Counted from the stretch's first letter, positions 14,717-57,005 are shown. The stretch: DNA of 64,000 bases from Candidatus Gastranaerophilales bacterium (GCA_944325145.1 CALYDL010000001.1:62001-126000), one strand, 5' to 3'. Numbers and translations are program-made. The notes: a model not told the origin generated them from the letters alone.

Positions 14717-14731
14717 TTTGGAGTTAAGAAA

Positions 14732-17700
14732 ATGAGAAACAAACGAAAAAAAGGCGGTTTGCTCACCGTTGCTATGATTTGGGCAGCATTTGCAACAACA
14801 AACTATAACCCTACAATTGCAGTTGAATATACCATAAATAATTTTAATGATTTAAATAATGCACTTTCAGGGCATGAATTTGGAGATATTTTAAACCCTT
14901 CACAATTACAAGCAAGCGACACCGTAATTTTAGAAGGAAACATAGCTTCAACATCACCTATAACAACCGCTGTTAATAACGTAACATTAAATGGCGGCGG
15001 GGGTGCATACAGCGCAGATAATTCATCCATAGATGGTTTTGTTATTAATACAGAAAACCAAACAATAGAAAATATAACAATTAGTGGCTTTAATAACGCA
15101 ATAAATGTAGGAAGCAACGGCTCATTAACTCTAACAAATACAATTTTTAACAATAATGCAGCAGACATTATAAATTCAGGAAATATAACATTAACAGGCG
15201 ATAACACAATAGGAACAATAACAGGAACAGGAAGCCTCACAAATTCAGGTAATTTAACCCTAAATAATAATGCAAACATTACAAACATTAGCCAATCATC
15301 AGGTTCCATTACAACAAGCGGCAATGCAACGATTTCAAATTCAAACATTTCAAACGGAAGTATTAATGTTAATGGTAATGGTAATCTAGATTTTAACGGC
15401 GGCACTTTGGGCGGAGATACCCAATTAACAATTAATAACGGCTCAACTTTTACAAATTCAGGCAATGTAACATTAAGTAACAATGACACCTTGAATGGCT
15501 CGTTCAAACAATCAACAGGAAGCCTAAGCCTTGCAGGTGCAACAACAAATGGCAAACTTTCTTTAGATGGTGGAGAAGTTAATGTTACAGGAAACCAAAC
15601 CTTAACAGGCGATGACACAATAGGTTCAGGCGGTGACACAATAGGTTCAGACGTTGATTTAACAGTTGGTGCAACTCTTACAAATGAAGGCGGCACAATT
15701 AATTTAAATAATGGCGACAAAATTGAAAGCACAGGTTCAATTTCTCAAACTTCAGGAACAATTGATGCTAATAATTTTGCAACTGCCGCAGATGGCGGAA
15801 GTTTAAAAGTTAATGGCGGTTCATTAAAAATTTCATCAGACGGCCTAACTTTAAATAACACGGGAGATACAATTTCGGCTGCAGTTGATGCTGAAATAGA
15901 CGGCAAATTAACAATAAACAATGGTTCAATAACGCTAAATACAGGCGACGAATTAAATAATTCAACCATAACACAAAACGGCGGCAGCTTAACAATAAGC
16001 GAGATTTCAACAGGTTCTGCAACTCTTAACTCAACAAGCGGAAACCTTACTTTAGATGGCGCAACAATAGAAGGAAACGACACAATTGCAGGCACCGTTA
16101 ACACAACAATAGGTGTAAACGGTGTCACAATTTCAAACACAAGTAGTGATGGCATTATATTAAACAATGGTGACGAAATAAACGGAACTGTTAATCAGCA
16201 AGGCGGGAACTTAAGCCTTGCAGGCGTTACAACAAACGGCAAATTAAATTCAACAGGCGGAAAGCTTAATATTACAGGCGACCAAACCTTAACAAGTGGC
16301 GACACAATAGGTTCAGGTGCTAATTTAACTGTTGATGCAACCCTTACAAATGATGGCGGCACAATTAATTTAAATAATAATGATTCAATTTCAAACAGTG
16401 GTTCAATTTCTCAAACTTCAGGAACAATTAATGCTAATGATTTTGCAACAACTGCAGATGGCGGAAATTTAAAAGTTAATGGTGGTTCATTAATTATTTC
16501 ATCAGACGGCCTTACTTTAAATAATGAAAATGATAACATTGCAGATGGCGCAACCGTTAATATGCAAGGTAATTTAACCATAGATAACGGTTCAATCACT
16601 TTAAATACAGGTGATAGTTTAGGAAACGGAACAATTACACAAAATGGCGGCAGCTTAACAATAAGCGAGATTTCAACAGGTTCTGCAACTCTTAATTCAA
16701 CAAGCGGAAACCTTACTTTAGATGGCGCAACAATAGAAGGAAACGACACAATTGCAGGCACCGTTAATACAACAATAGACGGTAATTTAACCATTAATAA
16801 CGGTTCAATTGTCCTAAATAAAAGTGACAATTTAGGAAACGGAACAATTGAACAAAACGGCGGCAGCTTAACAATAAGCGAGATTTCAACAGGCAACTCA
16901 ACACTGGATGCAAACAGCGGCAATTTAACCCTAAATGGTGCTACATTAACAGGTAACGACACAATTGCAGGCACCGTTAATACAACAATAGGTGTAAACG
17001 GTATTAATATTCAAGGCACGGGAACAGAAGGCGTTAAATTAACAAATCAAGATAGAATTAACGGCCAAATTAAACAAACAGGGGGCATATTAAACTTAAA
17101 TAATGCTATTACGGATGGCCACCTTTATTCTGAAAGCGGCAACTTAAACATAGAAAACAGCCAAACTCTTCTTCAGGGTGATTTTATAGATACTGATACA
17201 ATAGTAACTTTAGATGGCAACTTAAATGTTAATGGGGCAAATGTTACAATAAATGACAATGATAAACTTAAATCAGGCTCAATGAACCTGACAAACGGCA
17301 ATTTAAATTTAAATAATATTACAACAGAAAAGACAAATATAAATGCAACCGGCGGTAATCTTCAATTAAGCGGCGTTACATTGGATAACCAAAAAGATAA
17401 CATTGAATTTGGTTCAAAAGTTACATTTGATGGCGATGTAAATATAACAAAAGGTAATGTTGAAATAGATTCAGGCGATACCCTAACAACAGGCGAAATC
17501 ACTTTAAACCAAGCAAATGGGGCAACCGCAACTCTTGGTGTTGACGGCCTTAAAACAGACGTTGTAACTCTTAATTTACAAAAGGGTACATTGAATATCA
17601 TAAATAATGGCCTGGAATTGAACAATACATCAGATGTTATTCAAAAAGAAATTATCACAAATGTTGACGGCAATTTAACCATAAATGAAGGCAAGGTTTT

Positions 17701-19420
17701 ATTAAACGAAGATGACAGCTGGAAATCAGGCATGATTTCTGTTTCAAGCAACGGAAAACTTCAATTTGAAAATTTTGAAGCAACTTCAAATTCAGATACC
17801 ACACTTAAAATGGATGGGGAAAAATCCATTACTGAATTAATAAGTTCAACCGTAACATTTGGAAATGCAGAAAACATTTCAGATGGCACAATTGCCATAG
17901 ATTATGATTCAGGCATTCTAATTCAATCAGGTTCATATAACCTTTCTGATATGAAAACATCAGGCAGCATAAGCACAATAAATGGCGGCTATGAAAACCA
18001 CATTGCAAACACAATGACAATTTTAAACAACACAACACAAAGCACCATTTCAGGTGACGACATTACAGGTGACGGACTTGCCGCATTCGGAATTGACCTT
18101 TATGCAAGAAATGCTGATAAAATACAAAATTCAGATGTATTTTCAGGCAAAAATTTAACTTTATCAGATGCGAATGAAGCAGGTGAAATTTACGTTGCAG
18201 ATTACGTTTTAAACGGCAATTTACATAGGGGTGATGCACCAATTGACAGATATTATAATTTCAAAATATTCGATTATGAAAATGTTGATCCAAACATTGT
18301 ATTTTCTTCAACCGATAAAGAAACTTTCACCCCGATTGGCTACTACAAATTAACCTCTAATGGCGATGGAAGCTACACATTGGGTCTTGCAAGATATAAT
18401 AAACAAGTATTCAGATTGCAAGCAACTACATTAGCACAATATAACAACCAACTTGCAATTAACGACATAGTTACAAGCCACCACATTCTCCATGGCGAAA
18501 GACAGCTTGCAAATGCAAACTCAAACAGGTTTGCAGCTGCCACACCAAATCTGGGGCCATACCAATACGGCCAGCAAGAAGGCGGCTTATGGTTTAAATC
18601 ATATGCAGATATTGAAAGACTTTCAATGACTCAAGATTTAAATGTTCACAACACCGCCTACGGCGCAATTATTGGTGCAGATTTTCCGATTGTAAACCTT
18701 AAAAAAGGCTGGAAATTTATTCCAACTCCATATATAGGCTACAATGGCGCACACCAATCATTTAACGATGTGAGCGCATATCAAACAGGCGGCCAATTAG
18801 GCTTTATGGGAACATTTATGAAAAACAACTACATCAGTTCTCACACAATCTATGGTGGCGGCTACTATAACGAAATGCACGTTGATAATGTTCTGGATAA
18901 TACAGGCAACTGGTTCTGGGGCACAGCGCACAGGTTTGCATATAATTGGAATATTAAACGCAACTTTATAATTCAACCAAACTTCCTTGCATCATACAAC
19001 ATGTTTGGCGAACAAAACCTTCACTCAGATTTTGGTGCAATGGGAATGAGATCGGGCATGTTAAACGGTGTTAATATTGCCCCCGGTTTGAATTTCATAT
19101 ATGCAAAAGATGATTGGAGCTTATATTTAGGCGCACAATATTTATACAACATAAATGAACAAGTTTCAGGCAGAGCAGGAAACGTTTATCTTCCAAATCT
19201 TAATATGCGTCATGGTTACATCCAATACGGTATAGGTGCAACCAAAAACATTAAAGATGACCTTTCTACATACGCCCAAGTAATGATAAGAAACGGCGGA
19301 AGAACAGGTATAGCATTCCAATTGGGCCTTCAATATTACTTTGATATCCATGAAATTGGTTCAAAAATTAAAAATGGCTACAATATAGCGGCAGAAAAAA
19401 TAAAAAATATCAAAAAATAA
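14732..19420 (+). CDS. Large repeat-rich autotransporter (type Va-like)
   Basis: 1562 residues. A basic, hydrophobic signal region covers about residues 1-32 (RNKRKKGG then LLTVAMIWAAFA). A very long Asn/Thr/Ser/Gly-rich passenger of short beta-helix-like repeats (GNLTLNGA, GTINLNN, NGGSLTI) follows. From about residue 1283 comes an autotransporter-type beta-barrel of some 280 residues (GGLWFKSYADIERLS ... IAFQLGLQYYFDI). After the last strand there is an unusual polar tail of about 24 residues instead of a terminal aromatic. The ATG at 14732 has GGAG eight bases upstream and is preferred to a TTG ten codons earlier. The passenger contains nearly identical internal duplications. Probably a surface adhesin; ligand unknown. 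Confidence 0.87.
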   Translation: MRNKRKKGGLLTVAMIWAAFATTNYNPTIAVEYTINNFNDLNNALSGHEFGDILNPSQLQASDTVILEGNIASTSPITTAVNNVTLNGGGGAYSADNSSIDGFVINTENQTIENITISGFNNAINVGSNGSLTLTNTIFNNNAADIINSGNITLTGDNTIGTITGTGSLTNSGNLTLNNNANITNISQSSGSITTSGNATISNSNISNGSINVNGNGNLDFNGGTLGGDTQLTINNGSTFTNSGNVTLSNNDTLNGSFKQSTGSLSLAGATTNGKLSLDGGEVNVTGNQTLTGDDTIGSGGDTIGSDVDLTVGATLTNEGGTINLNNGDKIESTGSISQTSGTIDANNFATAADGGSLKVNGGSLKISSDGLTLNNTGDTISAAVDAEIDGKLTINNGSITLNTGDELNNSTITQNGGSLTISEISTGSATLNSTSGNLTLDGATIEGNDTIAGTVNTTIGVNGVTISNTSSDGIILNNGDEINGTVNQQGGNLSLAGVTTNGKLNSTGGKLNITGDQTLTSGDTIGSGANLTVDATLTNDGGTINLNNNDSISNSGSISQTSGTINANDFATTADGGNLKVNGGSLIISSDGLTLNNENDNIADGATVNMQGNLTIDNGSITLNTGDSLGNGTITQNGGSLTISEISTGSATLNSTSGNLTLDGATIEGNDTIAGTVNTTIDGNLTINNGSIVLNKSDNLGNGTIEQNGGSLTISEISTGNSTLDANSGNLTLNGATLTGNDTIAGTVNTTIGVNGINIQGTGTEGVKLTNQDRINGQIKQTGGILNLNNAITDGHLYSESGNLNIENSQTLLQGDFIDTDTIVTLDGNLNVNGANVTINDNDKLKSGSMNLTNGNLNLNNITTEKTNINATGGNLQLSGVTLDNQKDNIEFGSKVTFDGDVNITKGNVEIDSGDTLTTGEITLNQANGATATLGVDGLKTDVVTLNLQKGTLNIINNGLELNNTSDVIQKEIITNVDGNLTINEGKVLLNEDDSWKSGMISVSSNGKLQFENFEATSNSDTTLKMDGEKSITELISSTVTFGNAENISDGTIAIDYDSGILIQSGSYNLSDMKTSGSISTINGGYENHIANTMTILNNTTQSTISGDDITGDGLAAFGIDLYARNADKIQNSDVFSGKNLTLSDANEAGEIYVADYVLNGNLHRGDAPIDRYYNFKIFDYENVDPNIVFSSTDKETFTPIGYYKLTSNGDGSYTLGLARYNKQVFRLQATTLAQYNNQLAINDIVTSHHILHGERQLANANSNRFAAATPNLGPYQYGQQEGGLWFKSYADIERLSMTQDLNVHNTAYGAIIGADFPIVNLKKGWKFIPTPYIGYNGAHQSFNDVSAYQTGGQLGFMGTFMKNNYISSHTIYGGGYYNEMHVDNVLDNTGNWFWGTAHRFAYNWNIKRNFIIQPNFLASYNMFGEQNLHSDFGAMGMRSGMLNGVNIAPGLNFIYAKDDWSLYLGAQYLYNINEQVSGRAGNVYLPNLNMRHGYIQYGIGATKNIKDDLSTYAQVMIRNGGRTGIAFQLGLQYYFDIHEIGSKIKNGYNIAAEKIKNIKK
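15527..16879 (+). repeat. Large imperfect tandem duplication inside the autotransporter passenger
   Basis: A unit of about 670-687 bases (15527-16213) is repeated at 16214 to about 16879. Matching markers are AGCCTTGCAGG (15527 and 16214) and GGCGGCAGC (15980 and 16646). The segment coding GGSLTISEISTG is nearly base-identical in the two copies and recurs in a third partial copy at 16859. A small GGTTCAG-type slippage insertion near 15630-15650 separates the copy lengths. Confidence 0.8.
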
Positions 19421-38076: not shown

Positions 38077-38997
38077 ATGAAAGTTTATAATAATTTATTG
38101 GAATTAATTGGAAATACACCCCTTGTTGAATTACATAATTTTGAAAAAAGTTTTAACTTAAATTCTAAAATAATTGCAAAAATTGAAAAATTTAACCCCG
38201 CAGGGTCTTCTAAAGATAGAGTTGCGCTCAAAATGGTAGAAGAAGCAGAAAAAGAAGGCTTAATTAAAAAAGGCGGCACAATAATTGAACCCACAAGCGG
38301 AAACACAGGAATAGGCCTTGCTATGGTTGCTGCAATTAAAGGATATAAGGTTATTTTAACCATGCCGGATACCATGAGCGAAGAAAGAAGAAAACTTTTA
38401 AAAGCTTATGGAGCAGAACTTATTTTAACGGATGGCAAACTTGGAATGCAAGGGGCGGTTGAAAAAGCAAATGAACTTCTAAAAACAACGGAAAACGCTT
38501 TTATTCCATCTCAATTTACAAACCAAGATAACCCAAAAAGCCACTTTGAAACAACGGGCCCCGAAATTTGGCAAGATATGGATGGCAAAATTGATATTTT
38601 TATAGCAAGTATAGGAACAGGCGGCACGCTTTCAGGAGTTGGCAAATTTTTAAAATCAAAAAACCCTGAAATTAAAATTATAGGCGTTGAACCATATTCA
38701 TCCCCCCTATTAACCAAAAATATTGCAGGCCCTCATAAAATTCAAGGAATAGGGGCAAATTTTATTCCTAAAACCCTAGATAAAACAATTTACGATGAAA
38801 TTGTTGATATAAAAGATGAAGATGCAATTAAAACGGGAAATTTTATTGCAAAAAACGAAGGGCTTCTTGTTGGTATTTCAAGCGGGGCAGTTTTAGCTGC
38901 TTCAATTGAAATTGCAAAAAAATATGAAAATAAAAACATTGTAATTCTTTTGCCCGATACAGGCGAAAGATATTTAACAAGCGAGATGTTCAGCTAA
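38077..38997 (+). CDS. cysK: Cysteine synthase (O-acetylserine sulfhydrylase)
   Basis: 306 residues. PLP enzyme making cysteine from O-acetylserine and sulphide. NPAGSSKDRVA holds the Schiff-base Lys46; EPTSGNTGIGLAM binds substrate; ISSGAVLAAS closes the PLP phosphate site. The ATG at 38077 has GGAG seven bases upstream; an upstream TTG would overlap that site. Stop overlaps the convergent FlhA-like gene by four bases. Could be CysM-like, but length and motifs fit CysK. Confidence 0.94.
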   Translation: MKVYNNLLELIGNTPLVELHNFEKSFNLNSKIIAKIEKFNPAGSSKDRVALKMVEEAEKEGLIKKGGTIIEPTSGNTGIGLAMVAAIKGYKVILTMPDTMSEERRKLLKAYGAELILTDGKLGMQGAVEKANELLKTTENAFIPSQFTNQDNPKSHFETTGPEIWQDMDGKIDIFIASIGTGGTLSGVGKFLKSKNPEIKIIGVEPYSSPLLTKNIAGPHKIQGIGANFIPKTLDKTIYDEIVDIKDEDAIKTGNFIAKNEGLLVGISSGAVLAASIEIAKKYENKNIVILLPDTGERYLTSEMFS

Positions 38998-40442
38998 ATT
39001 TTTCCTAAAATTTTAAGTTCAAATTCAGGTGCAATTTCATCAAAGCTAATAGTTGGAATATCCATATAAAGTTGAGAAACAAGCGCAAAAACAACCGCTC
39101 TTAAATGGCTTGGCACAACCAAAACAACAGGTTTTTCATAAGATAATTCGGCTATTTTTTTCACCATTTCTTCAAATTGAAGCCCGTCAATTTTTACAAT
39201 GGAATCACCTTCATCGGGTTCAACTGCGTTTTCTTCCAATGCTGAAATTAATTCATCTGAAAGTTCATAAGCTTCAATTTCTTTGTCTTTATTGCTAATA
39301 GACCAGCAAATTTGGCGAGAAAGTGAAATTCTTAATTTTTCAAGTAAATCTGCTTTTGAATTATCATCAGCAAAATCGTTTATTTTTTCAAAAACATAGA
39401 TAACATCTTTAACGCTTATTCTTTCTCTTATTAAAGAACAAAAGATGTATTTTAATTCACTGATTGAAATAAAATCACCCAAAATTGTATCTATTATTAA
39501 AGGGTTATTATCTGAAACTATTTCAATATAGCGGTTCATATCGGAATAATTGAAAATTTCATTAACATGCTTAATTGAAAAATATTTCAAACATTTTGCA
39601 ATGTATTCATTAGGATCCAGCCCTTGTGTCCAATAATCTTTTGTATATTCATCTTTTATCCAAATAATTGGCCTTGTTGTTGCGGGGTCAACATCTGTTA
39701 TAGATTCAGGGGGAAATTCATCCATATTTAAGTCATCTTCATAAAATGCTTTGTAATTTGGATATGCAAAACCCGATACAACAGGAACGCCATGGACATT
39801 AATTGTAAAAACATTATCTTCAAGATCAGAATTTTCAACAAATTGAACTTTTGGAATAATATAACCTAATTCTTTTGTTAATTCCTGCCTTGTTTTAATC
39901 GTTTGGGATAAAAGATTTTTTTCACGGTACGGGTCATTTAGTGAATAGTTTTCTTCGCTTAATGAAATAGAAAGCCTTTCTTCACCCAAATTAGAGGCCA
40001 TTTTAGATGGCGACAACAAGCTTTTTAATTGCTTTTTAAGAGAATTAAGCCTGTCTACTTCTTTTGCAATTTCTTCGTTTAAAACGGCGCGTTCATCTTC
40101 TTTTGCGCCATCTAAGAAATTTTTAATTTCGTCAATTTTTTCTCTTTTTTCTTTAATTTTCTTTTGAAAATTTAGGCAAAGCTCATAAGGCTCTTCTTTT
40201 GATGAAAACATTTTTTCCATCATTGTTTTGTAGCCTTGAATGTCAACATCATCATTATCTTCAATTTCAATTTCACGAGTAAAAATGATGTTATAAACAA
40301 CTTTGTTGTTTAATTCGCTTTCATAAATAGAATATAAATCCCACCCGTCTTTAGACATTGAATTCAAAACAGCTTCAACCGAAGGAATGTCATCTGTGGG
40401 CGCTGATTTAATACAAAATTCTTGTCGTTGTCCTCTAATCAT
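38994..40442 (-). CDS. Membrane-free FlhA (FHIPEP) C-domain protein with DUF4177-like N-terminus
   Basis: 482 residues without a membrane helix. Residues 1-57 resemble DUF4177 (MSKDGWDLYSIYE, then a beta strand YNIIFTRE). Residues about 85-148 are a charged coiled coil. From about 155 to the end it follows the cytoplasmic domain of FlhA/FHIPEP in order: an ELGYIIPKVQFVE and VHGVPVVSG region, VDPATTRPIIWIKD, the cluster ECLKYFSIKHVNEIFNYSD-like helix (here AKCLKYFSIKHVNEIF), LKYIFCSLIRERISVKDVIYV, and PVVLVVPSHLRAVVFALVSQ. The usual 300-residue membrane channel is absent, and no flagellar or type III secretion gene is in the window. The ATG is six bases after a TAAAAT -10. Function unknown. 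Confidence 0.78.
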   Translation of the reverse strand: MIRGQRQEFCIKSAPTDDIPSVEAVLNSMSKDGWDLYSIYESELNNKVVYNIIFTREIEIEDNDDVDIQGYKTMMEKMFSSKEEPYELCLNFQKKIKEKREKIDEIKNFLDGAKEDERAVLNEEIAKEVDRLNSLKKQLKSLLSPSKMASNLGEERLSISLSEENYSLNDPYREKNLLSQTIKTRQELTKELGYIIPKVQFVENSDLEDNVFTINVHGVPVVSGFAYPNYKAFYEDDLNMDEFPPESITDVDPATTRPIIWIKDEYTKDYWTQGLDPNEYIAKCLKYFSIKHVNEIFNYSDMNRYIEIVSDNNPLIIDTILGDFISISELKYIFCSLIRERISVKDVIYVFEKINDFADDNSKADLLEKLRISLSRQICWSISNKDKEIEAYELSDELISALEENAVEPDEGDSIVKIDGLQFEEMVKKIAELSYEKPVVLVVPSHLRAVVFALVSQLYMDIPTISFDEIAPEFELKILGKI

Positions 40443-44219: not shown

Positions 44220-46622
44220 TTATTCTTCTTCTTCTTTCTTTTTGGCTTCTTCAGTAGCTTTTATGTCAGCTTCTTCTTTGCCTTTGGTATCATTGATGTG
44301 TTCATCCCAATATTCATTAACTGCATCTTCAGCAGCATCTGAAGCCGCAAAGTCATCGTTCATGTTTCTTTCAGCAGCTTTCCTTGCAGCATCTCTAATG
44401 CCTGTTAAGTATGCAAGGCCTGTAATTTCGTGGATGTCATCTGCATCAATAACAACGTCGCCATATTCATAATCATCGGTTGGTTTGTTTTGTTCTTGAA
44501 TTTCTTCCAATCTGTCTTTAACGTTTTCGATAACATCAGATTTAGGAGCATTTGCATAAGCATCTTCAACATCTTCATCGGTTGCATGGATTAACGCTTG
44601 TCCTGCGTTGTCATCTTTTGCAATTTGTCCATAGAAGGTTTCAAGGTTATCTGCGGTATTCAAGGTTTCTTTACCTGTTATTTCTTTGCCGCCTTTATTT
44701 ACGGTGAAGGTGTTAATAACACTTGAACCATTGATATCATCATAAGCTTCTTGGAAGTTATCGCCTCTTGTTGAATCAGCGATGTCATCACCTTGGCCTG
44801 TGCCCATCATGCCGCTGACATCAATTGATGTAATGCCTGCATCTCTGGCGCTTGAGTATGAAACTTTAAAATCAACAGAGTTTGTATAGCTTGGGCCTTT
44901 TTTGTAAGCATCAACATCTGCTTTTGAACCAACGGATTCATCTTGATTATTTGCCATAAGCATTAAGTTATCAAGAGCTTTGTTGCCGTCTGCATCAACG
45001 TCATTATCGTCAATTACACCATCGCCGTTGTAGTCATAGGCAAGAAGTTCTTCAGCGCCTTTTTCTGAGCCCAACAAGTCATTTTCTTTGCCGTTAGCAT
45101 AATCAAATGAGCCGTCTTCCATTTTTTCTGCATTTAAGAAGGTATATGTTGTATTGCCGTCTTGGAAGGTCATTGGGTCAAATCTGTCAACTTCGCCTGA
45201 GGTTGAATCATCGCCTTCTGTTGCAGCAGAGCCGCCAACATTCCAGTAATTGAGAATTTGTTCGCCAATTGTTTTATACAATGTGCCGCTTGCTTCGTTA
45301 TCGGCAACTTTTGAATAAGTTCTTGTGCCGTTTTGTGCACTCAAATCATATTGAACGCCTGCATCAGGGAACAATTGAGTAAAGGTGTACATTGCTTCTT
45401 TAAATGTGAAGCCTGCTTCATACATTTTAGTTAAAATGCCGTCTTCTTCAACAGCTTTTTTCATTTCAGCCATTTGTGTTTGGTTAACAGAATCTGCAGT
45501 TACACTCTTTTGTGATTTTGTAATTAATTCAGACAATGCTGCATAAGCAGGTTCTTTAACCCAAGCGTCTGATGAGTGGCCGTATGGAATTTTCCAGTTG
45601 TCGCCGCTTTTTGAAAGGCCGACAGCCCAGTTAGATTGAACAAATGTCATAATTTCATCTACATTCATGCCGGAAGCTTGAAGGTCTTCAATCATGCCAT
45701 TTGCAACAAGGTTTCTTAGGTTCATTAATTCAGGGTTTTGTTGTGCTGAATATCTATCGCCTGATTTATAAACGCCTTGTTTTTGGCCAAGCCATTCTGT
45801 TTTTGTAGCTTCAATGTTTTCAGCGTTTGCACCTGCATTTTGTACTGCAGCCAAATCGCCTTCTGCCGTATATCTTGATTGATATTGAGATAATAAAGAG
45901 TTTGCAACTTCTGCTTTTGCGCCTGAGAAAATAGGAACTTCCGTGTTTGTATCAATGTTTTTGTAAGCATCTTCAATTGTGCTTTGTTCCATAATATTTT
46001 TCGTTCTTGTAAGCAAGCTTATTGTTGCATTAACGTTTTGTAATTGAGCTTCTAAGCCCGAAACTTTATCCAAAGCATTTTGAATTTCATCTGCGATTGA
46101 ATTAATTCCTGCTTTGTTTGCATCATATATTTCATATAATCTTTGAATTTCAGCTTGGTTAGCTTGCAAGCCGCCTAAACGTTTTGTGAAAGCTTGGTTG
46201 AAGCATTCAGCAAAGCTTGCATCACCTTTGCCGCGTTTATAACTTAAAATAGCGTCTTTTGCAGCCAATCTGGCAGCTTCAACTGTTGCATCCTGAAATT
46301 CAGAAGTTGCATCAGTTAAATTAGCAGCTGAATCAGCAAGAGCATCGCTTTTTTTGTTAACATCTTCGTTGCTTTCTTCAATGTCGGCTAAGATTTTTTG
46401 AGCTTCGTCTTCCAAATCTTTAATTTTGCCTTGAAGAGTTGCAATTTGTTTGTCTAATTTTTTTGCACCTTCTTCACCTTCATTGTAGGTTTGCATGTCG
46501 GTAAACAAGGTTTCAATTTGGTCTTTAACTTGAGCTGCACCGGCTTCGCTTGCACCTGTCATGTTAAGCTTGTTAATGTTTTCAAGCAAGGTGTCAACAT
46601 TTTGTTTGTTAATGGCAGTCAT
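44220..46622 (-). CDS. Large coiled-coil protein with an EF-hand-like motif
   Basis: 800 residues, no recognised family and no signal peptide. Residues 1-230 form predicted coiled coils (IATLQGKIKDLEDEAQKIL, LEAQLQNVNATISLL). The middle is Asn/Ser/Thr-rich. Around residues 527-544 is DYNGDGVIDDNDVDADG, matching the DxDxDG calcium loop of EF-hand or dockerin repeats. The C-terminus is strongly acidic and ends in a KKEEEE tail. The ATG has GGAAAGG upstream. Such features suit an exported or surface-associated structural protein, but no export route is visible. A small gene (46730-46939) precedes it on the same strand. Confidence 0.78.
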   Translation of the reverse strand: MTAINKQNVDTLLENINKLNMTGASEAGAAQVKDQIETLFTDMQTYNEGEEGAKKLDKQIATLQGKIKDLEDEAQKILADIEESNEDVNKKSDALADSAANLTDATSEFQDATVEAARLAAKDAILSYKRGKGDASFAECFNQAFTKRLGGLQANQAEIQRLYEIYDANKAGINSIADEIQNALDKVSGLEAQLQNVNATISLLTRTKNIMEQSTIEDAYKNIDTNTEVPIFSGAKAEVANSLLSQYQSRYTAEGDLAAVQNAGANAENIEATKTEWLGQKQGVYKSGDRYSAQQNPELMNLRNLVANGMIEDLQASGMNVDEIMTFVQSNWAVGLSKSGDNWKIPYGHSSDAWVKEPAYAALSELITKSQKSVTADSVNQTQMAEMKKAVEEDGILTKMYEAGFTFKEAMYTFTQLFPDAGVQYDLSAQNGTRTYSKVADNEASGTLYKTIGEQILNYWNVGGSAATEGDDSTSGEVDRFDPMTFQDGNTTYTFLNAEKMEDGSFDYANGKENDLLGSEKGAEELLAYDYNGDGVIDDNDVDADGNKALDNLMLMANNQDESVGSKADVDAYKKGPSYTNSVDFKVSYSSARDAGITSIDVSGMMGTGQGDDIADSTRGDNFQEAYDDINGSSVINTFTVNKGGKEITGKETLNTADNLETFYGQIAKDDNAGQALIHATDEDVEDAYANAPKSDVIENVKDRLEEIQEQNKPTDDYEYGDVVIDADDIHEITGLAYLTGIRDAARKAAERNMNDDFAASDAAEDAVNEYWDEHINDTKGKEEADIKATEEAKKKEEEE

Positions 46623-47038: not shown

Positions 47039-49042
47039 TTAATATCTTTTATATATATAAAAGGTTTTATCTTCATCATTTCCGGTTTTTTTCAAAAAAT
47101 TGTCTGCTTCATAAAAAGCTTTTTTAAAAGGAAGAAAGCCTGAATTAATAAAATAGTTTTCATTAATCAAACAAACTTTTCCGGTTTCTCTATTCATATA
47201 GTTTGTAATTTTGCAATCATTTGTTTCAATAAAATCTTTCACTGTTGAAATTGATTGAATAAAACCATCTAAAACAATGTAGTCATAGTTTATAAGGTTT
47301 GGTTTTTTATCATAGGTTAAAAAATCAATATGCAATTGGTTTTTAAAATCTAAATATTTAATAGGATAAGCCATAAAACTTTCGCTCACAAATAGGGCTA
47401 CTTTGCTATTTTTTGGCAATTTTTGAATTTCATTTTTTAAGAAAATGTGGCTTTTGCTTATAAAATATGTTTTCAAATTAACATCTCTAATATTGTTCAT
47501 AAGATAAGCCAAATTCGGCTTCTTTAAAAATTCTGAAAAAATAGCAGCAAAAGGCCTTTGAACCATAAACAAAGGAACAAATAAAAGGTATAAAAAAGCA
47601 ATTATGCTAACAAAACTTTTATAATGGCCTTTTTTATAAAAAATTGAAAAAATTGGAATTAAAAATGTTAAAAAGGCAACAAAAAACCTGATAGATGTTG
47701 GAAAATAAACAATTGCAAATGAAAGAAGAACCGTTTGAAAAACAAAAATAATTACAAAAGGCCTTAATTTTTTATTGAATAAAGCAACAATTGAAGAAGG
47801 CAAAACATGAAGAAAACTTAAAAGCCCTAACCCCATAGTGTGTTCAAAAAGTGCTGCGTTTAATTTTGGAATTTCACCGTTTGAATTAAATAATGGGTTT
47901 ATATTCAATAAATTAAAAATAAAATGCACTAAATTATCATAAATTGGGCTGAATAAATAAAATATGGCAACGCCTGAAAAATCAAAAATAGAAAAAATGT
48001 ATCTGATTAAATTTGAAACCCCGCCCATAATAAACGTTTGAAAACTGTTAAAATAAAGCGAATGCTCATTTATGGCACTTTTAGCACTAATGGGCGAAGA
48101 ATAATTAATTAAATTTAAAATATAGTTATAGCTTGAAAAAATTGAAAAGTTTAGAATTAAAAAAAGAAAATACTTAATAAATTCCTTTCTTAAAATAAAA
48201 ATATACCAAATTAAAAGGGGAATTGAAGCTATAACGCCTGTTGATTTAACGCCAAAGCTTATTGCCATAGAAAGTGAAGCAAAATATAGAAAGCTTAGTT
48301 TGTTTTGTTTTTTAAATTCTAAAATTAAATAAAAAGATGTTGCTAAAAGTGAACCAACTAAAAGGTCTGTTTGTGTGCTTGAAATTTGAGATATAACCCC
48401 TGCAAGAGATGAAAAAATTAAGATAGACCAAATTCTTTTATTAAAATCTATTTCATAAAATTCCATTATTTTAAAAGAAGATATTATTAAAAGAAAATAT
48501 GAAAAAAATTGCAATAAGCCAAAGCCAAGGTCGTTTTTAGATAAAGATAAAATCCAAACGTAAAAAAGTTCAGAATTAATTGGCATTGAATGGCACCTGA
48601 TATCTGCAACTTCAAAGTGAGATATAAACCCGTCAGATGCCCAAAATAAGGAACGAAGACAATGATAACTTGAAGCATCTGCTTCATTTGGCGGCATAAA
48701 AGAAAGAAGAAAACTTATAAAAAGCATAAATATGAGTGCAAGGGTTAAAAGCAATAAGCTTTTATCACTTTTAAAAGCATTTTTTAATTCAAGCAAAAAC
48801 CCTTTGAATTTTAAAACAGATGGAAGGTTTTTCTTTTTTAACCAGATAAAAGAAATAATTAAAAGCTCAACAAATGTTAAAATTAAAATGTTTTGCCCTG
48901 AAATTACTTTAAATAAAGATAAAATTTCAATGTTTAATATAACAAAAGAAAAAAATGAAATGAAAAATAAAACTGACAAATTAAAAATTGAAGCTAAAAA
49001 GAAACTTATTAAACTTTGAAAAACTACCCCTAAAAAAAGCAT
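47039..49042 (-). CDS. GT-C-like polytopic membrane protein A
   Basis: 667 residues, about 10-12 membrane helices, then a soluble C-terminal part. The first periplasmic loop reads MPPNEADASSYHCLRSLFW and DIRCHSMPINSELFY, followed by ISSTQTDLLVGSLLATS. This is the pattern of bacterial protein/lipid mannosyltransferase-like GT-C proteins with acidic catalytic residues in loop one. It is the last of four tandem paralogues after lepA. Residues 1-317 are identical at DNA level to protein B (49042-51111); the C-terminal half differs entirely in detail. Its start overlaps the previous stop by one base (TAATG). Confidence 0.75.
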   Translation of the reverse strand: MLFLGVVFQSLISFFLASIFNLSVLFFISFFSFVILNIEILSLFKVISGQNILILTFVELLIISFIWLKKKNLPSVLKFKGFLLELKNAFKSDKSLLLLTLALIFMLFISFLLSFMPPNEADASSYHCLRSLFWASDGFISHFEVADIRCHSMPINSELFYVWILSLSKNDLGFGLLQFFSYFLLIISSFKIMEFYEIDFNKRIWSILIFSSLAGVISQISSTQTDLLVGSLLATSFYLILEFKKQNKLSFLYFASLSMAISFGVKSTGVIASIPLLIWYIFILRKEFIKYFLFLILNFSIFSSYNYILNLINYSSPISAKSAINEHSLYFNSFQTFIMGGVSNLIRYIFSIFDFSGVAIFYLFSPIYDNLVHFIFNLLNINPLFNSNGEIPKLNAALFEHTMGLGLLSFLHVLPSSIVALFNKKLRPFVIIFVFQTVLLSFAIVYFPTSIRFFVAFLTFLIPIFSIFYKKGHYKSFVSIIAFLYLLFVPLFMVQRPFAAIFSEFLKKPNLAYLMNNIRDVNLKTYFISKSHIFLKNEIQKLPKNSKVALFVSESFMAYPIKYLDFKNQLHIDFLTYDKKPNLINYDYIVLDGFIQSISTVKDFIETNDCKITNYMNRETGKVCLINENYFINSGFLPFKKAFYEADNFLKKTGNDEDKTFYIYKRY

Positions 49043-49048
49043 TATTTT
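48092..49048 (+). repeat. 957-bp exact direct repeat, copy 1
   Basis: Identical to 50161-51117 (offset 2069 bases). Covers the first 317 codons of protein A and six bases upstream of its ATG. Outside these limits the first mismatches are T versus G (48091/50160) and T versus C (49049/51118). Confidence 0.92.
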
Positions 49049-51111
49049 TTACTCCAAATTAAAAAATCTTTAACTGTTTCATCTTCTCTATCTTGTAAAT
49101 ATTTTGGAAGCTTAGCTTCAATTTCCCCGGAAACATTAAAGCCAATTTCAGCTAAAAATTCATCATTAATTTTGCAGCTTGCGCTAAGCGCTTTATCTAA
49201 TTCATTAAAATTCAAAAGCCTTGGCCTTCTTTGATAATCAAACCCTTCATAATAACAAATAGCTTTATTTGAAGGGGTTAAAGGGTTTTTAATGTCGTTT
49301 GCATTAATCACTTCAACATGCTGCGGCAAGTTTTTTTGCGTGATTATGTAATCATATTTTGATAAATCATATTCTCTTATGTGCAAAATATTTAAAGTAT
49401 CAATTTTGCAATTGTTGTTAAATTCTAAAAACTTTGTGCTATATAGCATATAACCGTTTGAAGCAAAAATTGCAATTTTAGAATTATTTTTGCAAATTGA
49501 CTGAACAGCACTTTTCATTGTGTATGCTTCATTAAAGCTTGGGTAAAATTTATAGTTTAAATCTCTCATTTTGTTTTGAATTAATTTAATATCAGGTGTT
49601 TTTTGAAATTCTTTTTTCAAGTGATACATTGGCCTTTGAGAAAGAAAAAGTGAAGCATACCCCAAATAAAAAATTGCAAATAAAATTATTAAAAATTTAT
49701 AGGGGTTCATTTTTTTAAAATATGTAAGAGAAATTAATGGAATAGAAAACGCAACAAAAGTTACAATAAATCGAATGCTATATATCATATAAGCAATTGA
49801 AAAGCTTAAACAAAAAATCATTGCCCAAAAAATAATTGAAAAAATTCTAAGTTTTTTATTAAAAAAGCCAACAATACTTGCGGGCAAGAAAACTAAAAAC
49901 CCTAAAATTCCAAAGCCTAAAACTTGTTCTGTCATGCTTATATTTGTAAAATTAAGCCCGACATTTTCGCCTAAATCTCTTTCAATTCCTAAAAATTCAA
50001 TAGCACCCGCTTGAGCAGAAAGCAAGAATTTATTAATATAAAACCCAATAGTAAACCCTGAAAAATCAAAAAATTGGAAAATATATCTTATGAAATTTGC
50101 TATTATTGCGCCAAAACCACCCCAAAACCCATGACCTAAAAGCGCACTTTTAGCACCAAGGGGCGAAGAATAATTAATTAAATTTAAAATATAGTTATAG
50201 CTTGAAAAAATTGAAAAGTTTAGAATTAAAAAAAGAAAATACTTAATAAATTCCTTTCTTAAAATAAAAATATACCAAATTAAAAGGGGAATTGAAGCTA
50301 TAACGCCTGTTGATTTAACGCCAAAGCTTATTGCCATAGAAAGTGAAGCAAAATATAGAAAGCTTAGTTTGTTTTGTTTTTTAAATTCTAAAATTAAATA
50401 AAAAGATGTTGCTAAAAGTGAACCAACTAAAAGGTCTGTTTGTGTGCTTGAAATTTGAGATATAACCCCTGCAAGAGATGAAAAAATTAAGATAGACCAA
50501 ATTCTTTTATTAAAATCTATTTCATAAAATTCCATTATTTTAAAAGAAGATATTATTAAAAGAAAATATGAAAAAAATTGCAATAAGCCAAAGCCAAGGT
50601 CGTTTTTAGATAAAGATAAAATCCAAACGTAAAAAAGTTCAGAATTAATTGGCATTGAATGGCACCTGATATCTGCAACTTCAAAGTGAGATATAAACCC
50701 GTCAGATGCCCAAAATAAGGAACGAAGACAATGATAACTTGAAGCATCTGCTTCATTTGGCGGCATAAAAGAAAGAAGAAAACTTATAAAAAGCATAAAT
50801 ATGAGTGCAAGGGTTAAAAGCAATAAGCTTTTATCACTTTTAAAAGCATTTTTTAATTCAAGCAAAAACCCTTTGAATTTTAAAACAGATGGAAGGTTTT
50901 TCTTTTTTAACCAGATAAAAGAAATAATTAAAAGCTCAACAAATGTTAAAATTAAAATGTTTTGCCCTGAAATTACTTTAAATAAAGATAAAATTTCAAT
51001 GTTTAATATAACAAAAGAAAAAAATGAAATGAAAAATAAAACTGACAAATTAAAAATTGAAGCTAAAAAGAAACTTATTAAACTTTGAAAAACTACCCCT
51101 AAAAAAAGCAT
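49042..51111 (-). CDS. GT-C-like polytopic membrane protein B
   Basis: 689 residues, same family and fold as A. The first 317 residues are identical to A, then the sequence diverges from SSPLGAKSALLGHGFWGG on. C-terminal soluble region contains CYYEGFDYQRRPRLLN and a stretch on DYIITQKNLPQHVEVINAND. The ATG overlaps the stop of protein C by one base. Probable acceptor or sugar specificity differs in the C-terminal half. Sugar donor likely polyprenyl-linked; unproven. Confidence 0.75.
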   Translation of the reverse strand: MLFLGVVFQSLISFFLASIFNLSVLFFISFFSFVILNIEILSLFKVISGQNILILTFVELLIISFIWLKKKNLPSVLKFKGFLLELKNAFKSDKSLLLLTLALIFMLFISFLLSFMPPNEADASSYHCLRSLFWASDGFISHFEVADIRCHSMPINSELFYVWILSLSKNDLGFGLLQFFSYFLLIISSFKIMEFYEIDFNKRIWSILIFSSLAGVISQISSTQTDLLVGSLLATSFYLILEFKKQNKLSFLYFASLSMAISFGVKSTGVIASIPLLIWYIFILRKEFIKYFLFLILNFSIFSSYNYILNLINYSSPLGAKSALLGHGFWGGFGAIIANFIRYIFQFFDFSGFTIGFYINKFLLSAQAGAIEFLGIERDLGENVGLNFTNISMTEQVLGFGILGFLVFLPASIVGFFNKKLRIFSIIFWAMIFCLSFSIAYMIYSIRFIVTFVAFSIPLISLTYFKKMNPYKFLIILFAIFYLGYASLFLSQRPMYHLKKEFQKTPDIKLIQNKMRDLNYKFYPSFNEAYTMKSAVQSICKNNSKIAIFASNGYMLYSTKFLEFNNNCKIDTLNILHIREYDLSKYDYIITQKNLPQHVEVINANDIKNPLTPSNKAICYYEGFDYQRRPRLLNFNELDKALSASCKINDEFLAEIGFNVSGEIEAKLPKYLQDREDETVKDFLIWSKK

Positions 51112-51117
51112 TATTTT
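50161..51117 (+). repeat. 957-bp exact direct repeat, copy 2
   Basis: Second copy, in protein B. No inverted repeats, target-site duplication or transposase borders it, so it is a segmental duplication or gene conversion tract rather than a mobile element. Confidence 0.92.
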
Positions 51118-53144
51118 CTCTCCAATACTATAAATTTAGCCAAATTCCCCGCATCATGCAATTTTATTTCAAATTGTTTAAGATATGAAAAATTATTTTC
51201 AAAAAAATGTTGAGGGCGAATTTTACAAAGCGCCATATCGGCATTTTTTAAATTGTTTGTTGAAAAAGAATAGCTTCTGCCTTCTTTATTTGCAAAAATG
51301 CAGGCTGCATTTTTAATTTTTCCCTCTTTTTTAATGTCGGATAAATTAATTGTATCAGCAGAATTCATAAAATCTAAAGGCAAAATAAAATAATCATAGT
51401 AAGAAGGTTCAACATCATCAAAATGCAAAATTGTTAGAACATCAATTTTACAATTATTTTCATATTCTAAATATTTTGTATTGTAAATTTCCACCCCTTT
51501 TGCTTGAATTAAACCAATTTTAGAAGAATTTTTACAATAAGGCTCAATATTATTTTTTAATTGAACCTCAGGCGAAATTTTATTTTTAAAATAATAAGTT
51601 TTATTTCTTAAATTATCTTGAAAAGCTTTTAAATTCTTAGTTTTCAAAAATTCATCAAAATAAAATTTTCTCTCGTTTACATTAAATGGAAAATAAAGAA
51701 AAGAAATAAAAACAATAAATGCAACAATATATTTAAAAATTTTATTATATGAAAGCGAAAATAAAGGTGCAGCAATTAAAACAGCTGTTAAAAGGAACCT
51801 TATATTATACATCATATAAGCAATAGAAAAACTTAAAATTAAAATAAAAGAAAAAAGAAAAATTGAAAAAAGCCTCAATTTTTTATCAAAAAAGCCTTTT
51901 ATAAAACAAGGAATAAAAACAAAAAAACCTAAAATTCCAAACCCTGAAATTTGTTCCGTTAATAAAACAGGGTAATTAATTCTTTTAATGTTAACCCCCA
52001 AATCAGGCGAAATTCCAAGAAACGAAATAAAGGCGTTTTCAAAACGAATTATTCTATCTTGAACAGAATATAAGAATTTAAACCCCGAAAAATCAAAAAA
52101 TAAAAAAAAGTGCCTTATAACATTTGAAAAATATCCTTTAATTCCGCCCCAAAAGCCGTTTTCAGAAAAAGAAGCATAATTTCCCAAAAAATTGGCATAG
52201 TTTATAAAATTTGAAATATATACACTGCTTGAAAAAATTAAAAAGTTTAAAATAAAAAAGGCAAAAAATTTAAAAATATCTTTTTTCAGGTAAAAAAGAA
52301 GCCATACAAAAATTGGGGTAAAAACAAAAAATGCTGTTGTTTTCACACCAAACATTAAAGCAAAAGCAAGGGATGAAAAATAAATTGAATTGATTTTACC
52401 TTCTTTTTTAAATTCAAGAACCATATAAATTGCAAAAGAAGCCAAAGAAGCAACCAAAAGGTCTGATTGCAGGCTTGAAATTTCACAAACAAGCAAAGGC
52501 AAAGAAGAAGCAAGAAAAATTGCCCAAATTCTTTTTTTAAAATCAATGTTTAAAAATTCCATAATTTTATAAATGGAACCTATATAAAAGAAAAAAGAAA
52601 AAAACTGCAAAAGCCCAAAACCAATGTCTTTTTTTGTAAGCGCCAAAACCCAAGTATAAAAAATTTCAGAATTCATTGGCATTATATGGCATCTTATATC
52701 CGCTATATCAAAATTAAAAATTTTACCTTCAGATAACCAAAATAAAGACCTTAGGCCATGGTAGCTTATGGCATCACCTTCTGTTGGCGGGTAAAATGCA
52801 GCCAATAAAAAAGAAGCAAAAATAAAAACCAAAAAACCAATTGAAAGAAAAATAAAAAGCTTATCTTCAAAAAATAGTTTTTTGAATTGCTCAAATATTT
52901 CTTTATAGTTAAAAATTAAAAATTTAGAGTTATTTTTTTTAAAAAAAATAAAAAATAAAATACATTCAATAAATATAATAAATAAAATGCTTAAAGAATT
53001 TATTGATGAAAACATTGATAAAAAAGTAATATTTAAAACAACAGAAGCAAAAAATATAATGAAAAATAAAAGCGGCTTTTTAAAATAAGAAGCAACTAAA
53101 AATGAGAAAAAAGAATGAAAAATTACTCCCAAAAACATAGACAT
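51111..53144 (-). CDS. GT-C-like polytopic membrane protein C
   Basis: 677 residues. Loop one reads YPPTEGDAISYHGLRSLFW and DIADIRCHIMPMNSEIFY. Moderately similar to A and B over the N-terminal half (not identical), and with similar C-terminal layout ending in a polar domain that holds CKNSSKIGLIQAKGVEIYNT. A second ATG two codons in would also fit. One-base overlap with D upstream and B downstream. Function as for A. Confidence 0.75.
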   Translation of the reverse strand: MSMFLGVIFHSFFSFLVASYFKKPLLFFIIFFASVVLNITFLSMFSSINSLSILFIIFIECILFFIFFKKNNSKFLIFNYKEIFEQFKKLFFEDKLFIFLSIGFLVFIFASFLLAAFYPPTEGDAISYHGLRSLFWLSEGKIFNFDIADIRCHIMPMNSEIFYTWVLALTKKDIGFGLLQFFSFFFYIGSIYKIMEFLNIDFKKRIWAIFLASSLPLLVCEISSLQSDLLVASLASFAIYMVLEFKKEGKINSIYFSSLAFALMFGVKTTAFFVFTPIFVWLLFYLKKDIFKFFAFFILNFLIFSSSVYISNFINYANFLGNYASFSENGFWGGIKGYFSNVIRHFFLFFDFSGFKFLYSVQDRIIRFENAFISFLGISPDLGVNIKRINYPVLLTEQISGFGILGFFVFIPCFIKGFFDKKLRLFSIFLFSFILILSFSIAYMMYNIRFLLTAVLIAAPLFSLSYNKIFKYIVAFIVFISFLYFPFNVNERKFYFDEFLKTKNLKAFQDNLRNKTYYFKNKISPEVQLKNNIEPYCKNSSKIGLIQAKGVEIYNTKYLEYENNCKIDVLTILHFDDVEPSYYDYFILPLDFMNSADTINLSDIKKEGKIKNAACIFANKEGRSYSFSTNNLKNADMALCKIRPQHFFENNFSYLKQFEIKLHDAGNLAKFIVLERK

Positions 53145-55201
53145 TACTTGGAATAAACCTCCAATGCTCTAACTTCAATTTCATCTTCCACTTTATCTAA
53201 AAAGGGAAATTCAGCCCTGATTTTAAAATCAAAATTTTTCAAATAATCTTTATTCATAGAACATGAAACATACATTGCAGCTTCCGGCCCATTGCTTTTT
53301 TTGTTTGTTCTATCTGAAACAAAAAATGCACAAATTGCCTTATCGGGCGAATTTATCGGGTTTTTTACGTCTTCTTTTGTGATAACATTTAACTGTTGCA
53401 TATTGTCTTTTAATAAAACAATAGAATCATATTCATCTAAATTATATTTTTCAATATGCAATAAATTTAAAACATCAATTCTGCAATCGTTTTCAATTTC
53501 TAAATATTTTGCACTGTAATAAACATGGGTATATGGAGCAAAAACACCAATTTTTGCGCCATTTTTGCAATATGGTTCAATTGCATTTTTATACGCAGAA
53601 CTTTGCGAAAAAATAGCAGGGCCAAAAAATTTATATCCCAAATTGCGCATTGTATCTTGAACAACAGAAAAAGAAGAAGCCTTTAATACATTTGGAATTA
53701 AATATGCAATAGGCCTTGCGGTTACAAACAAAGAGGCGTAGCAAAAATAAAAAACCGCATATAAAATAGAAATTACTTTTATAATATGAATCTTTTCAAA
53801 ATAACTAAAACAAAGAACAGGAAAAGAAAGTGCAACAAATGCCACAATATACCTTATTCCATAAACAGTATAAAGCATTGAGCCGGATAAAATTAAAAAA
53901 GGAACAAAAAAGAATAATGAAAATATTCTAAATTTTTTCTTGAATAAAGAAATGAATAAACAAGGAAGATAAATTAAAAACCCCAAAATTCCAAAAGCCC
54001 CAACTTGCTCATCCATTCCAAAATTCACCCTTTTTATAGGGTCAATTTCAACATTTGTATCAGGTATTGAAAACAAATTAAATAAGAAATCTTTAAATTG
54101 CAGAATATATTCATTCAAACATTTTCCCAAATTAAGGCCGCTAAAATCAATAAATTGAATAAAATAGTTAATTATATTTGCGATATAAGTCTTCATTCCG
54201 CCAAAAAATTTGTTATACAAAATAAAAGCATTATTTGAAAGAAAAGAACCGTAATCTATAAAATTTAAAATATAGTTATAGCTGGAAAAAATTAAGAAAT
54301 TCAAAACAAAAAACGCAAAGAATTTGAAAAAATTTCTGCCTAAAAGCTTAATAAACCAAACAAAAAGCAAAGGAGCAATAAAAAATGCCGTTGTTTTAAC
54401 ACCAAAAGAAAGCGCCAAAGCTAAAGATGAGAAAAATAAAGAAGAAATAGTTTTTTCTTTTGTAAAATTTAAGATAAGAAAAATAGAATATGAAAATAAT
54501 GCAGCAACAATTAAATCTGTTTGCGTGCTTGAAATTTGAATTACTATTGCAGGCAAAGATGTAAAAATTAAAATTGCCCAAATAATTCTTTTAACATCAA
54601 TTTCATAAAATTCCATTATTTTAAAACTTGAAAAAATTAAAAGAAAATATGAAAAAAATTCTAAAAGCCCAAAACCAATGTCTTTTTTAGATAATGCCAA
54701 AATCCAAGTATAAAAAAGTTCTGAATTAATAGGCATACAAAGCGCTCTCATATCGGTTGCTTCAAAATGAGAAATAAAGCCGTCTTTTAGCCAAAATAAA
54801 ACCCTCAAACAATGGTAGCTTTGAGCATCAGGTTCCGTTGGGGGAACTAGAAGCGCCAAAAAAAATGTGGTCAAAATAAAAATGCCCCAAGCTAAAAGAG
54901 GCAAAATTAAAAGCCCGTCAGCTTTTAGCGCCATTTTTATTTTTTCAAAATAATTTAAAATGTTTGAAATCGGGTTTAATATGGGTTTATTTTTCTTAAG
55001 CCAAACCAAAAAAACAAAAACTAAAAATAAAAAAGAAAAAATTAAAATATTTTGTCCGTTTATTGCCCTAAACAAAGATAAAATTTCAAGGTTTAAAACA
55101 ATAAAAGCAAAAAAGATGACAGGGAAATAAAAAAGCCTTCCAAAAATTGAAGATAGAAAATAGCTTATAAAGGCATTTAAAACTACGCCCGTTAATAACA
55201 A
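53144..55201 (-). CDS. GT-C-like polytopic membrane protein D
   Basis: 685 residues. First gene of the tandem set. Loop one reads VPPTEPDAQSYHCLRVLFW and DMRALCMPINSELFY. Start is TTG at 55201, supported by GGAG nine bases upstream inside the lepA end; the paralogues also begin MLxxGVV. Only one base separates it from the lepA stop, so it is co-transcribed with lepA. The C-terminal region has CKNGAKIGVFAPYTHVYYS, which aligns in position with protein C. Confidence 0.75.
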   Translation of the reverse strand: MLLTGVVLNAFISYFLSSIFGRLFYFPVIFFAFIVLNLEILSLFRAINGQNILIFSFLFLVFVFLVWLKKNKPILNPISNILNYFEKIKMALKADGLLILPLLAWGIFILTTFFLALLVPPTEPDAQSYHCLRVLFWLKDGFISHFEATDMRALCMPINSELFYTWILALSKKDIGFGLLEFFSYFLLIFSSFKIMEFYEIDVKRIIWAILIFTSLPAIVIQISSTQTDLIVAALFSYSIFLILNFTKEKTISSLFFSSLALALSFGVKTTAFFIAPLLFVWFIKLLGRNFFKFFAFFVLNFLIFSSYNYILNFIDYGSFLSNNAFILYNKFFGGMKTYIANIINYFIQFIDFSGLNLGKCLNEYILQFKDFLFNLFSIPDTNVEIDPIKRVNFGMDEQVGAFGILGFLIYLPCLFISLFKKKFRIFSLFFFVPFLILSGSMLYTVYGIRYIVAFVALSFPVLCFSYFEKIHIIKVISILYAVFYFCYASLFVTARPIAYLIPNVLKASSFSVVQDTMRNLGYKFFGPAIFSQSSAYKNAIEPYCKNGAKIGVFAPYTHVYYSAKYLEIENDCRIDVLNLLHIEKYNLDEYDSIVLLKDNMQQLNVITKEDVKNPINSPDKAICAFFVSDRTNKKSNGPEAAMYVSCSMNKDYLKNFDFKIRAEFPFLDKVEDEIEVRALEVYSK

Positions 55202-55202
55202 T

Positions 55203-57005
55203 TTATTCTTCTCCTAAGCTTAATACAGCCATAAACGCTTCTTGTGGAATATCCACCCTTCCCACAGATTTCATGCGTTTTTTACCCTTCTTTTGTTTTT
55301 CCAAAAGTTTTCTTTTACGGGAAATATCGCCCCCGTAACATTTATCTAAAACGTTTTTCCTCATTGCCTTAATTGTAGTTCTTGCAATAACTCTGCCGCC
55401 GATTGCAGCTTGAATTGCAACTTCAAACATTTGTTTCGGAATAATTTCTTTTAATTTTGTTGTCAATTTTTGCCCGATGCCATAAGCTGAATCTCTGTGG
55501 CAAATTACAGATAAAGCATCGACTGCTTCGCCTGAAAGTAAAATATCCATTTTAACCAAATCAGACCTTTTATATGAATGAAATTCATAATCTAAGCTTG
55601 CATACCCTTTGGTTCTTGATTTTAGTTGGTCATAAAAATCAGTAATAACTTCTGATAACGGGATATGATATTCTAAATTAACGCGCTTTTTATCAATATA
55701 TTGCATATTAATAAAATCGCCCCTTTTAGATTCGCACAAATCCATTAAAGCGCCCACATAATCGTTTGGGGTAAACAAATTAACTTTTACATAAGGTTCT
55801 TCAATGTAATCTCTATATTGGGCATCCGGCAAATTAGCGGGGTTATCAATTTCAACCATTGTGCCGTCTGTTTTATAAACCTTATAAATAACGCTTGGTG
55901 CAGTTGTAATTAAATTTAGGTTATATTCCCTCTCAAGCCTTTCTTGCGCAATTTCCATATGAAGCATGCCAAGAAAACCGCATCTGAAACCAAACCCAAG
56001 GGCAGATGAAGTTTCAGGTTCAAATGTTATGGATGAATCATTTAATTTTAACTTTTCAAGCGCTTCTTTTAAGTCATGGTATTGATCATTATCAACGGGA
56101 TACAACCCTGAAAATACCATTGGTTTTGCTTCTTTATAACCTTCCAAAGGTTCGTCGGCCGGGGCATTTGCATTTGTTATGGTGTCGCCTACAAATCTTG
56201 TAATTTCTTTAATAGAACATGCCATATACCCTACTTCGCCTGTTTTAAGTTCACCAACAGGGTTTCTTAAAGGGTTTAAAAAGCCCAATTCTACAACTTC
56301 AAACTTTTTGCCTGTTGCCATAAATTGAATGGTATCGCCAAGCTTAATTGAGCCGTCCATAACCTTAAAAAAGCAGATTGTACCCAAATATTGGTCATAT
56401 GCACTGTCAAAAACAAGTGCTCTTAAAGGTTTATCGGATGTATCAACAGGCGGCGGAATAAATTTAACAACAGCCTCTAATACATCTTCAATTCCGGTTC
56501 CTTCTTTAGCGCTTACAGGAATTGCATAGCTTGAATCTATCCCTAAAACTTCTTCAATTTCTTGCTTAACTCTTTCAACATCGGCAGATGGAAGGTCAAT
56601 TTTATTGATAACGGGAATAATTTCCAAATTTTGTTCCATTGCAAGGTAAACATTAGCTAATGTTTGCGCTTCAACGCCTTGGGTGGCATCAACAATTAAT
56701 AAAGCCCCTTCACAAGCAGCCAAAGACCTTGAAACTTCATAAGAAAAATCCACATGCCCCGGGGTATCAATTAAATTTAAAATGTAATCTTTGCCATCTT
56801 GAGCTTTATAGTTCATTTTGGCAGCATTTAATTTAATTGTAATGCCGCGTTCACGTTCAATATCCATGGTATCTAAAAGCTGGTCTTGCATGTCACGTTT
56901 ATCAATGGTTCCTGTTTTTTCAAGAAGCCTGTCTGCAAGCGTTGATTTGCCATGGTCTATATGCGCAATAATACTAAAGTTTCTTATGTTCTCAATTCTT
57001 TGCAT
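55203..57005 (-). CDS. lepA: Elongation factor 4
   Basis: 600 residues, ribosomal back-translocase GTPase. G1 AHIDHGKST near residue 14, G2/G3 in [10 protein letters not shown] and [17 protein letters not shown] (G4), and the LepA-specific C-terminal [17 protein letters not shown]. The ATG is six bases after a TATACT -10, with no ribosome site. It heads the operon with the four GT-C-like genes. Confidence 0.97.

Follow-up and report, generated by a model that had tools for sequence, protein, structure and literature searches.

Half-gene identity in a tandem pair of predicted GT-C glycosyltransferase genes of Gastranaerophilales: a probable case of domain-restricted concerted evolution

Two neighbouring genes of a Candidatus Gastranaerophilales bacterium, which we call A and B, share every base of their first 317 codons and then part company. 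We asked whether so sharp a change is the mark of a very recent duplication, of an error of assembly, of a locus that switches the ends of its proteins, or of continuing exchange between old paralogues; the comparisons set out below point to the last of these.

An exact half-gene repeat in a four-gene array

Self-comparison of the window (the whole stretch of 64,000 nucleotides analysed) found the longest exact run at an offset of 2069 to be 957 nt, positions 48092-49048 (copy in A) being identical to positions 50161-51117 (copy in B), both on the minus strand. This confirms the exact 957-bp duplication over the 5' halves of A and B that had been reported in the preliminary description: each copy consists of nt 1-951 of its gene (codons 1-317) and six bases upstream of the start. 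First mismatches appear from nt 952, and past either end of the repeat identity drops to background (about 25-40%, ungapped) inside 50 nt. The window contains no second exact repeat of about this size, and in the whole genome the block has two copies at 100%, those of A and B, the only other matches being to genes C and D at 67-69% in local alignments.

A and B belong to a four-gene tandem array (A-B-C-D), the end of which adjoins lepA (55203-57005, minus strand), a conserved flank that anchors the synteny of the array. Gene A (47039-49042, minus strand) encodes 667 amino acids and gene B (49042-51111, minus strand) 689, both predicted to be membrane glycosyltransferases of the GT-C fold, and both genes are intact and full-length. 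Genes C (51111-53144, minus strand) and D (53144-55201, minus strand, next to lepA) are paralogues that show no homogenisation with A/B in the source genome, their N-halves being 64% identical to those of A/B at the nucleotide level. Stop and start codons overlap between several neighbouring array genes (by one base between A and B), and the GGAG of the likely ribosome-binding site of A sits within the final codons of B, which suggests a single operon with translational coupling.

The homology of the block ends in A at about codons 318-327 (48062-48091, minus strand), where identity drops to about 50%. From there each gene has a C-half of its own, at 47039-48091 in A and at 49042-50160 in B (both minus strand). 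The two genes had been described as unrelated after codon 317, which proved too strong: their C-halves are still homologous, with about 50% nucleotide identity and the same fold, and their divergence equals that among the other members of the array.

Directly downstream of the array, in a position conserved throughout the genus, lies a gene (44220-46622, minus strand) for an 800-aa coiled-coil-like protein with a calcium-binding-like DxDxD stretch (YDYNGDGVIDDNDVDADGNK), for which no family was found above cut-off. Elsewhere in the window, a 1572-aa open reading frame (14702-19420, plus strand) without a Pfam match contains internal exact repeats spaced 213, 666 and 879 nt apart, and a gene at 38994-40442 (minus strand) encodes a protein resembling the C-terminal part of FHIPEP (FlhA/type III export gate), the match covering the cytoplasmic part only (profile positions 321-656).

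Predicted fold and position of the identical block

All four array genes encode membrane proteins of one uncurated family. None of A-D reaches the cut-off of any Pfam or NCBIfam model, and searches of PHROGs and of PDB sequences for a family name gave nothing above cut-off. Gene C alone matches PMT_2 / GT87, with scores below the curated cut-offs (23.5 versus 25 bits, 18.1 versus 26.1 bits), and an assignment to these Pfam families was therefore dropped.

Structure prediction was more informative. AlphaFold2 models of B (built on 45 relatives) and of A reached pLDDT values of 90.4 and 92.3, and a Foldseek search of the PDB with the B model returned ArnT, ALG12, ALG9, OST/STT3, PglB and PMT4 with probability 1.00 and E-values from 1.9e-5. 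On the strength of these models, the family is one of GT-C-type, ArnT-like predicted membrane glycosyltransferases. B resembles ArnT and other GT-C enzymes (PDB 5ezm/5f15, ALG12, STT3/PglB, PMT) by fold over about 630 columns (probability 1.00), and A and B have in common with them a first periplasmic loop of the catalytic type, in which Pro, Asp, Tyr and Arg are invariant, a second large loop (EL4) and a periplasmic C-terminal domain. They differ from these structures in that identity is 9-14% and TM-scores are 0.3-0.5, in having three extra N-terminal helices, and in reaching no curated Pfam or NCBIfam family.

In ArnT-type enzymes, both catalysis and the binding of substrate involve the first of the large periplasmic loops (PMC7801869). 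In the A/B family this loop holds residues P117, D122, Y126, R130 and R149, invariant in 45 homologues, of which D122 is presumably catalytic; both enzymes are presumably active. Counted on the model, the canonical helices start after three additional N-terminal ones, TM1 spanning residues 94-113 and TM2 residues 176-195. We read TM6 and TM7 as the two parts of residues 267-302, predicted as one continuous helix with an RKEF turn, and in the model EL4, the loop between TM7 and TM8, starts at about residue 303. From this helix map, the identical block would run from the additional helices through canonical TM1-TM7, taking in the first large loop, and on into EL4 for some 14 residues, so that in this genus the homogenised block stops just past the seventh canonical GT-C helix of the model. 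The part that each protein keeps to itself would be the remainder of EL4, the later membrane helices and a periplasmic alpha/beta domain.

The two halves in related species

The genus of the source genome (g1) is represented by nine species (G000, the source, to G008), all of which carry members of the family. A scan of GTDB contigs returned two records only, Candidatus Gastranaerophilales BRZ_GD__bin71 and Candidatus Galligastranaerophilus intestinigallinarum, which belong to relatives that the set already included. G007, G001 and G006 have A and B intact, on a single contig and in the same order, and the order lepA-D-(C)-B-A-800-aa gene is kept in g1, which excludes independent duplications.

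Within each of these four genomes, the source included, the N-halves of A and B are 99-100% identical (dS 0.00, 0.00, 0.01 and 0.02); between the same four species, N-halves differ with dS of 0.75-2.4 and pS of 0.48-0.72. The C-halves behave the other way round: A and B are 49-52% identical within each species, while identity between species is 58-69% for A to A and 69-83% for B to B. The C-half of A in the source genome is orthologous to those of G007, G001 and G006, and the C-half of B to those of the same three species and of G003. G005 has a single gene, with a B-type C-half. Average pairwise dN/dS is low throughout and thus gives no pointer to diversifying selection.

Phylogenies of the two halves contradict each other. 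A pairs with B by species in the N-half tree (100/100, 100/99 or identical), whereas in the C-half tree the four A genes form one clade (100/100) and the B genes another (99/97). Approximately unbiased (AU) tests rejected an A clade forced upon the N-half (p 8e-37, at a cost of 1276 log units) as well as the grouping of each A with its own B forced upon the C-half (p 5e-10, 310 log units). Together with the conserved gene order, the half-gene trees exclude repeated fresh duplication. As A lies closer to C than to B in the C-half tree (88/84), A may once have had an N-half of its own. With two halves of opposite history, trees of whole A/B-family proteins would mislead.

The 3' boundary of the N-half tract falls within codons 301-324 in the four g1 species. 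Past the identical tract, A and B first differ at nt 901 in G007, nt 945 in G001 and nt 969 in G006, and in G006 the tract begins only past nt 84. We read this stable end as the point at which the C-halves become too diverged for recombination. In G006 (locus L037), gene D has exact runs of 50, 45 and 38 nt in common with A/B, longer than any A-D or B-D run across species, and these are likely to be small conversion patches involving a third paralogue. The idea that g1 homogenises its tandem genes in general was considered and rejected: the neighbouring 800-aa gene is tandemly duplicated in G002 and G003, and its copies are only 67-80% identical.

A second genus (g6) has a tandem pair of its own, with other neighbours and in a separate clade. 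In five g6 species the N-halves are 96-100% identical within a genome, the order of the pair is constant (Y-X), and the final ~170 columns of the alignment, which correspond roughly to the periplasmic domain, form cross-species X and Y clades (100/100 each). The ends of the identical tract vary in g6, some of them lying well inside the C-half; in G137 the pattern is that of a patchwork. A boundary that always coincides with a domain junction thus holds in g1 and fails in g6. Nor is homogenisation universal, since tandem pairs of the same family in g11 remain at 54-57% identity in the N-half. In g50, a same-family tandem pair (locus L101, G088:C54, 48-3655) is identical over about 485 codons and both genes end at the same early stop, which may represent pseudogenisation spread by conversion or a collapse of the assembly.

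RecA was found in eight of the nine g1 genomes, the ninth being 85% complete. MutL (PF01119, TIGR00585) was not detected above cut-off in any of the nine g1 species and was detected in 27 of 29 other relatives; PF01119 was likewise not detected in either of the two g50 genomes sampled. MutS1 of g1 is divergent and about 100 aa shorter, its full-length hits scoring 407-498 bits versus 913-950 in most relatives, and G010 (g3) is similar, with PF01119 absent and MutS1 at 563 bits. These profiles suggest an old loss of mismatch repair. Such a loss would relax the barrier to exchange between diverged copies. As the cause of homogenisation it was rejected: the g6 pairs are homogenised in genomes with MutL and an intact-scoring MutS1, and loss of mismatch repair is therefore not required.

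Gene conversion, rival explanations and known systems

The comparisons establish identity within species, divergence between species, opposite topologies, conserved order and repetition in a second genus, and we consider it very probable that A and B undergo domain-restricted concerted evolution by gene conversion, an old pair of genes having had its first half repeatedly overwritten. Paralogues are closer to each other within a species than to their orthologues in four g1 and five g6 species, synteny is shared (lepA-D-(C)-B-A in g1, Y-X in g6), and the unconverted flank, the C-half in g1 and the tail in g6, keeps the gene-wise phylogeny. Its presence in several species of g1, and its independent occurrence in g6, mark the pattern as a long-lived feature of evolution and not as a newly made duplication or a switch.

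As for the molecular route, we infer RecA-type recombination between the copies, by gene conversion or by an equivalent unequal exchange with restoration. A and B would be ancient tandem paralogues whose C-halves have been distinct since before the genus radiated. Exchange would overwrite the first half of one copy with that of the other, again and again. The overwritten half includes the catalytic first loop on the periplasmic side as well as both sets of helices, the additional N-terminal ones and the canonical seven of the GT-C fold. The C-halves, with the second periplasmic loop (EL4), the helices that follow and the domain in the periplasm, would be too diverged for recombination and so stay distinct. 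GC-biased conversion was rejected, the N-halves being no GC-richer than the C-halves.

It had also been proposed that recombination at the locus changes the C-half that is expressed, and the geometry does permit a deletion: crossing-over would delete 2069 bp, in agreement with the offset, and leave the A C-terminus, while A and B, overlapping by one base, look co-transcribed. However, crossing-over between N-halves can only delete or multiply the C-half of B, so that nothing alternates and deletion is one-way. No silent cassette was found when the whole genome was checked for copies of the block, B precedes A wherever both are read in one contig, and an array reduced to the N-half with the A C-half occurs in none of the nine species, the single-gene G005 having kept the B type. 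Both genes are intact under low dN/dS. With neither alternative arrangements between species nor cassettes to suggest phase or antigenic variation, a switch of C-terminal domains is unsupported, and we regard it as very unlikely.

A tandem exact repeat forms a loop in the assembly graph, and a loop unrolled once yields letter-identical copies and hides the true copy number. The source genome is a metagenome-assembled genome (MAG) in 63 contigs, and fragmentation seems to be common to every assembly used (20-250 contigs). Graph collapse may therefore have sharpened the exact identity of A and B, and the genome may hold more B-type units than were assembled. A single N-half written twice by an assembler, which can unroll such a repeat without read support, or a merger of strain variants would nevertheless be a very unlikely source of the entire pattern. 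Contigs of relatives do break at the repeat, in G003 77 bp into the exact repeat of B and in G004 within the last ~50 bp of the N-half, as would be expected of a real branching repeat. Independent assemblies of nine species and two genera carry the same structure, its boundaries vary from one species to the next, and a few differences persist inside it (nt 901, 915 and 960 in G007, ten in G006, the patchwork of G137); we argue from these boundaries and differences that homogenisation is real. Large hidden divergence between A and B is excluded, because a divergent copy would assemble as a separate sequence. In this gut lineage, loci of this kind are places where MAGs built from short reads can be broken or blurred.

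The preliminary description had left open a very recent duplication or gene conversion, and of these conversion stands. A partial tandem duplication in this lineage, one that placed a copy of half of B ahead of an unrelated C-half, would account for exact identity that includes synonymous sites, but is highly improbable: G007, G001 and G006 show the same half-gene identity in different sequence and conserved order, five g6 species repeat it, and the age of the C-half orthologues of A matches that of the genus, every one of them being part of a full-length gene. Nucleotide-level purifying selection, for instance on an overlapping signal, could keep all synonymous sites identical within a genome without exchange, but is scarcely credible when these sites vary freely from one species to another (pS 0.48-0.72).

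If conversion does maintain the pair, the common half would presumably confer a shared core chemistry and the separate halves different acceptors or products. Going further, one may speculate, with considerable doubt, that the arrangement is maintained by selection as well as by chance recombination: conversion would keep the catalytic GT-C core of both enzymes in step and leave their EL4 loops and periplasmic domains distinct, so that two enzymes with one donor chemistry and two acceptors would evolve jointly, and the module junction between TM7 and EL4 would fix where the tract ends. On this view the arrangement arose at least twice in the Gastranaerophilaceae.

The kind of process is already known. 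A search of the literature found no report of half-gene homogenisation for GT-C enzymes or for this lineage, which does not amount to proof of absence, and neither GT-C glycosyltransferases nor Melainabacteria appear in the main-text tables of 26 genes in a study of concerted evolution of prokaryotic protein genes, among them tuf, psbA/psbD, amo/hao, fla and mtrA (PMC6053082). The cases tabulated there resemble A/B in that paralogues within a species are closer than orthologues, with conserved synteny, in at least five species, and are attributed to gene conversion; unlike them, A/B are homogenised only over the first half of a tandem pair, the second half remaining orthologous by gene. A second known system is that of babA/babB/babC of Helicobacter pylori, which combine near-identical terminal parts with a gene-specific variable part and undergo gene conversion (PMC4552749). 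The bab genes are adhesin genes at separate loci, with CT-repeat phase variation and chimeras between strains, none of which is seen here, whereas A and B are a tandem pair of predicted enzymes in fixed order. Half-gene concerted evolution in two genera would offer a natural experiment in which conversion couples some modules of a protein and spares others.
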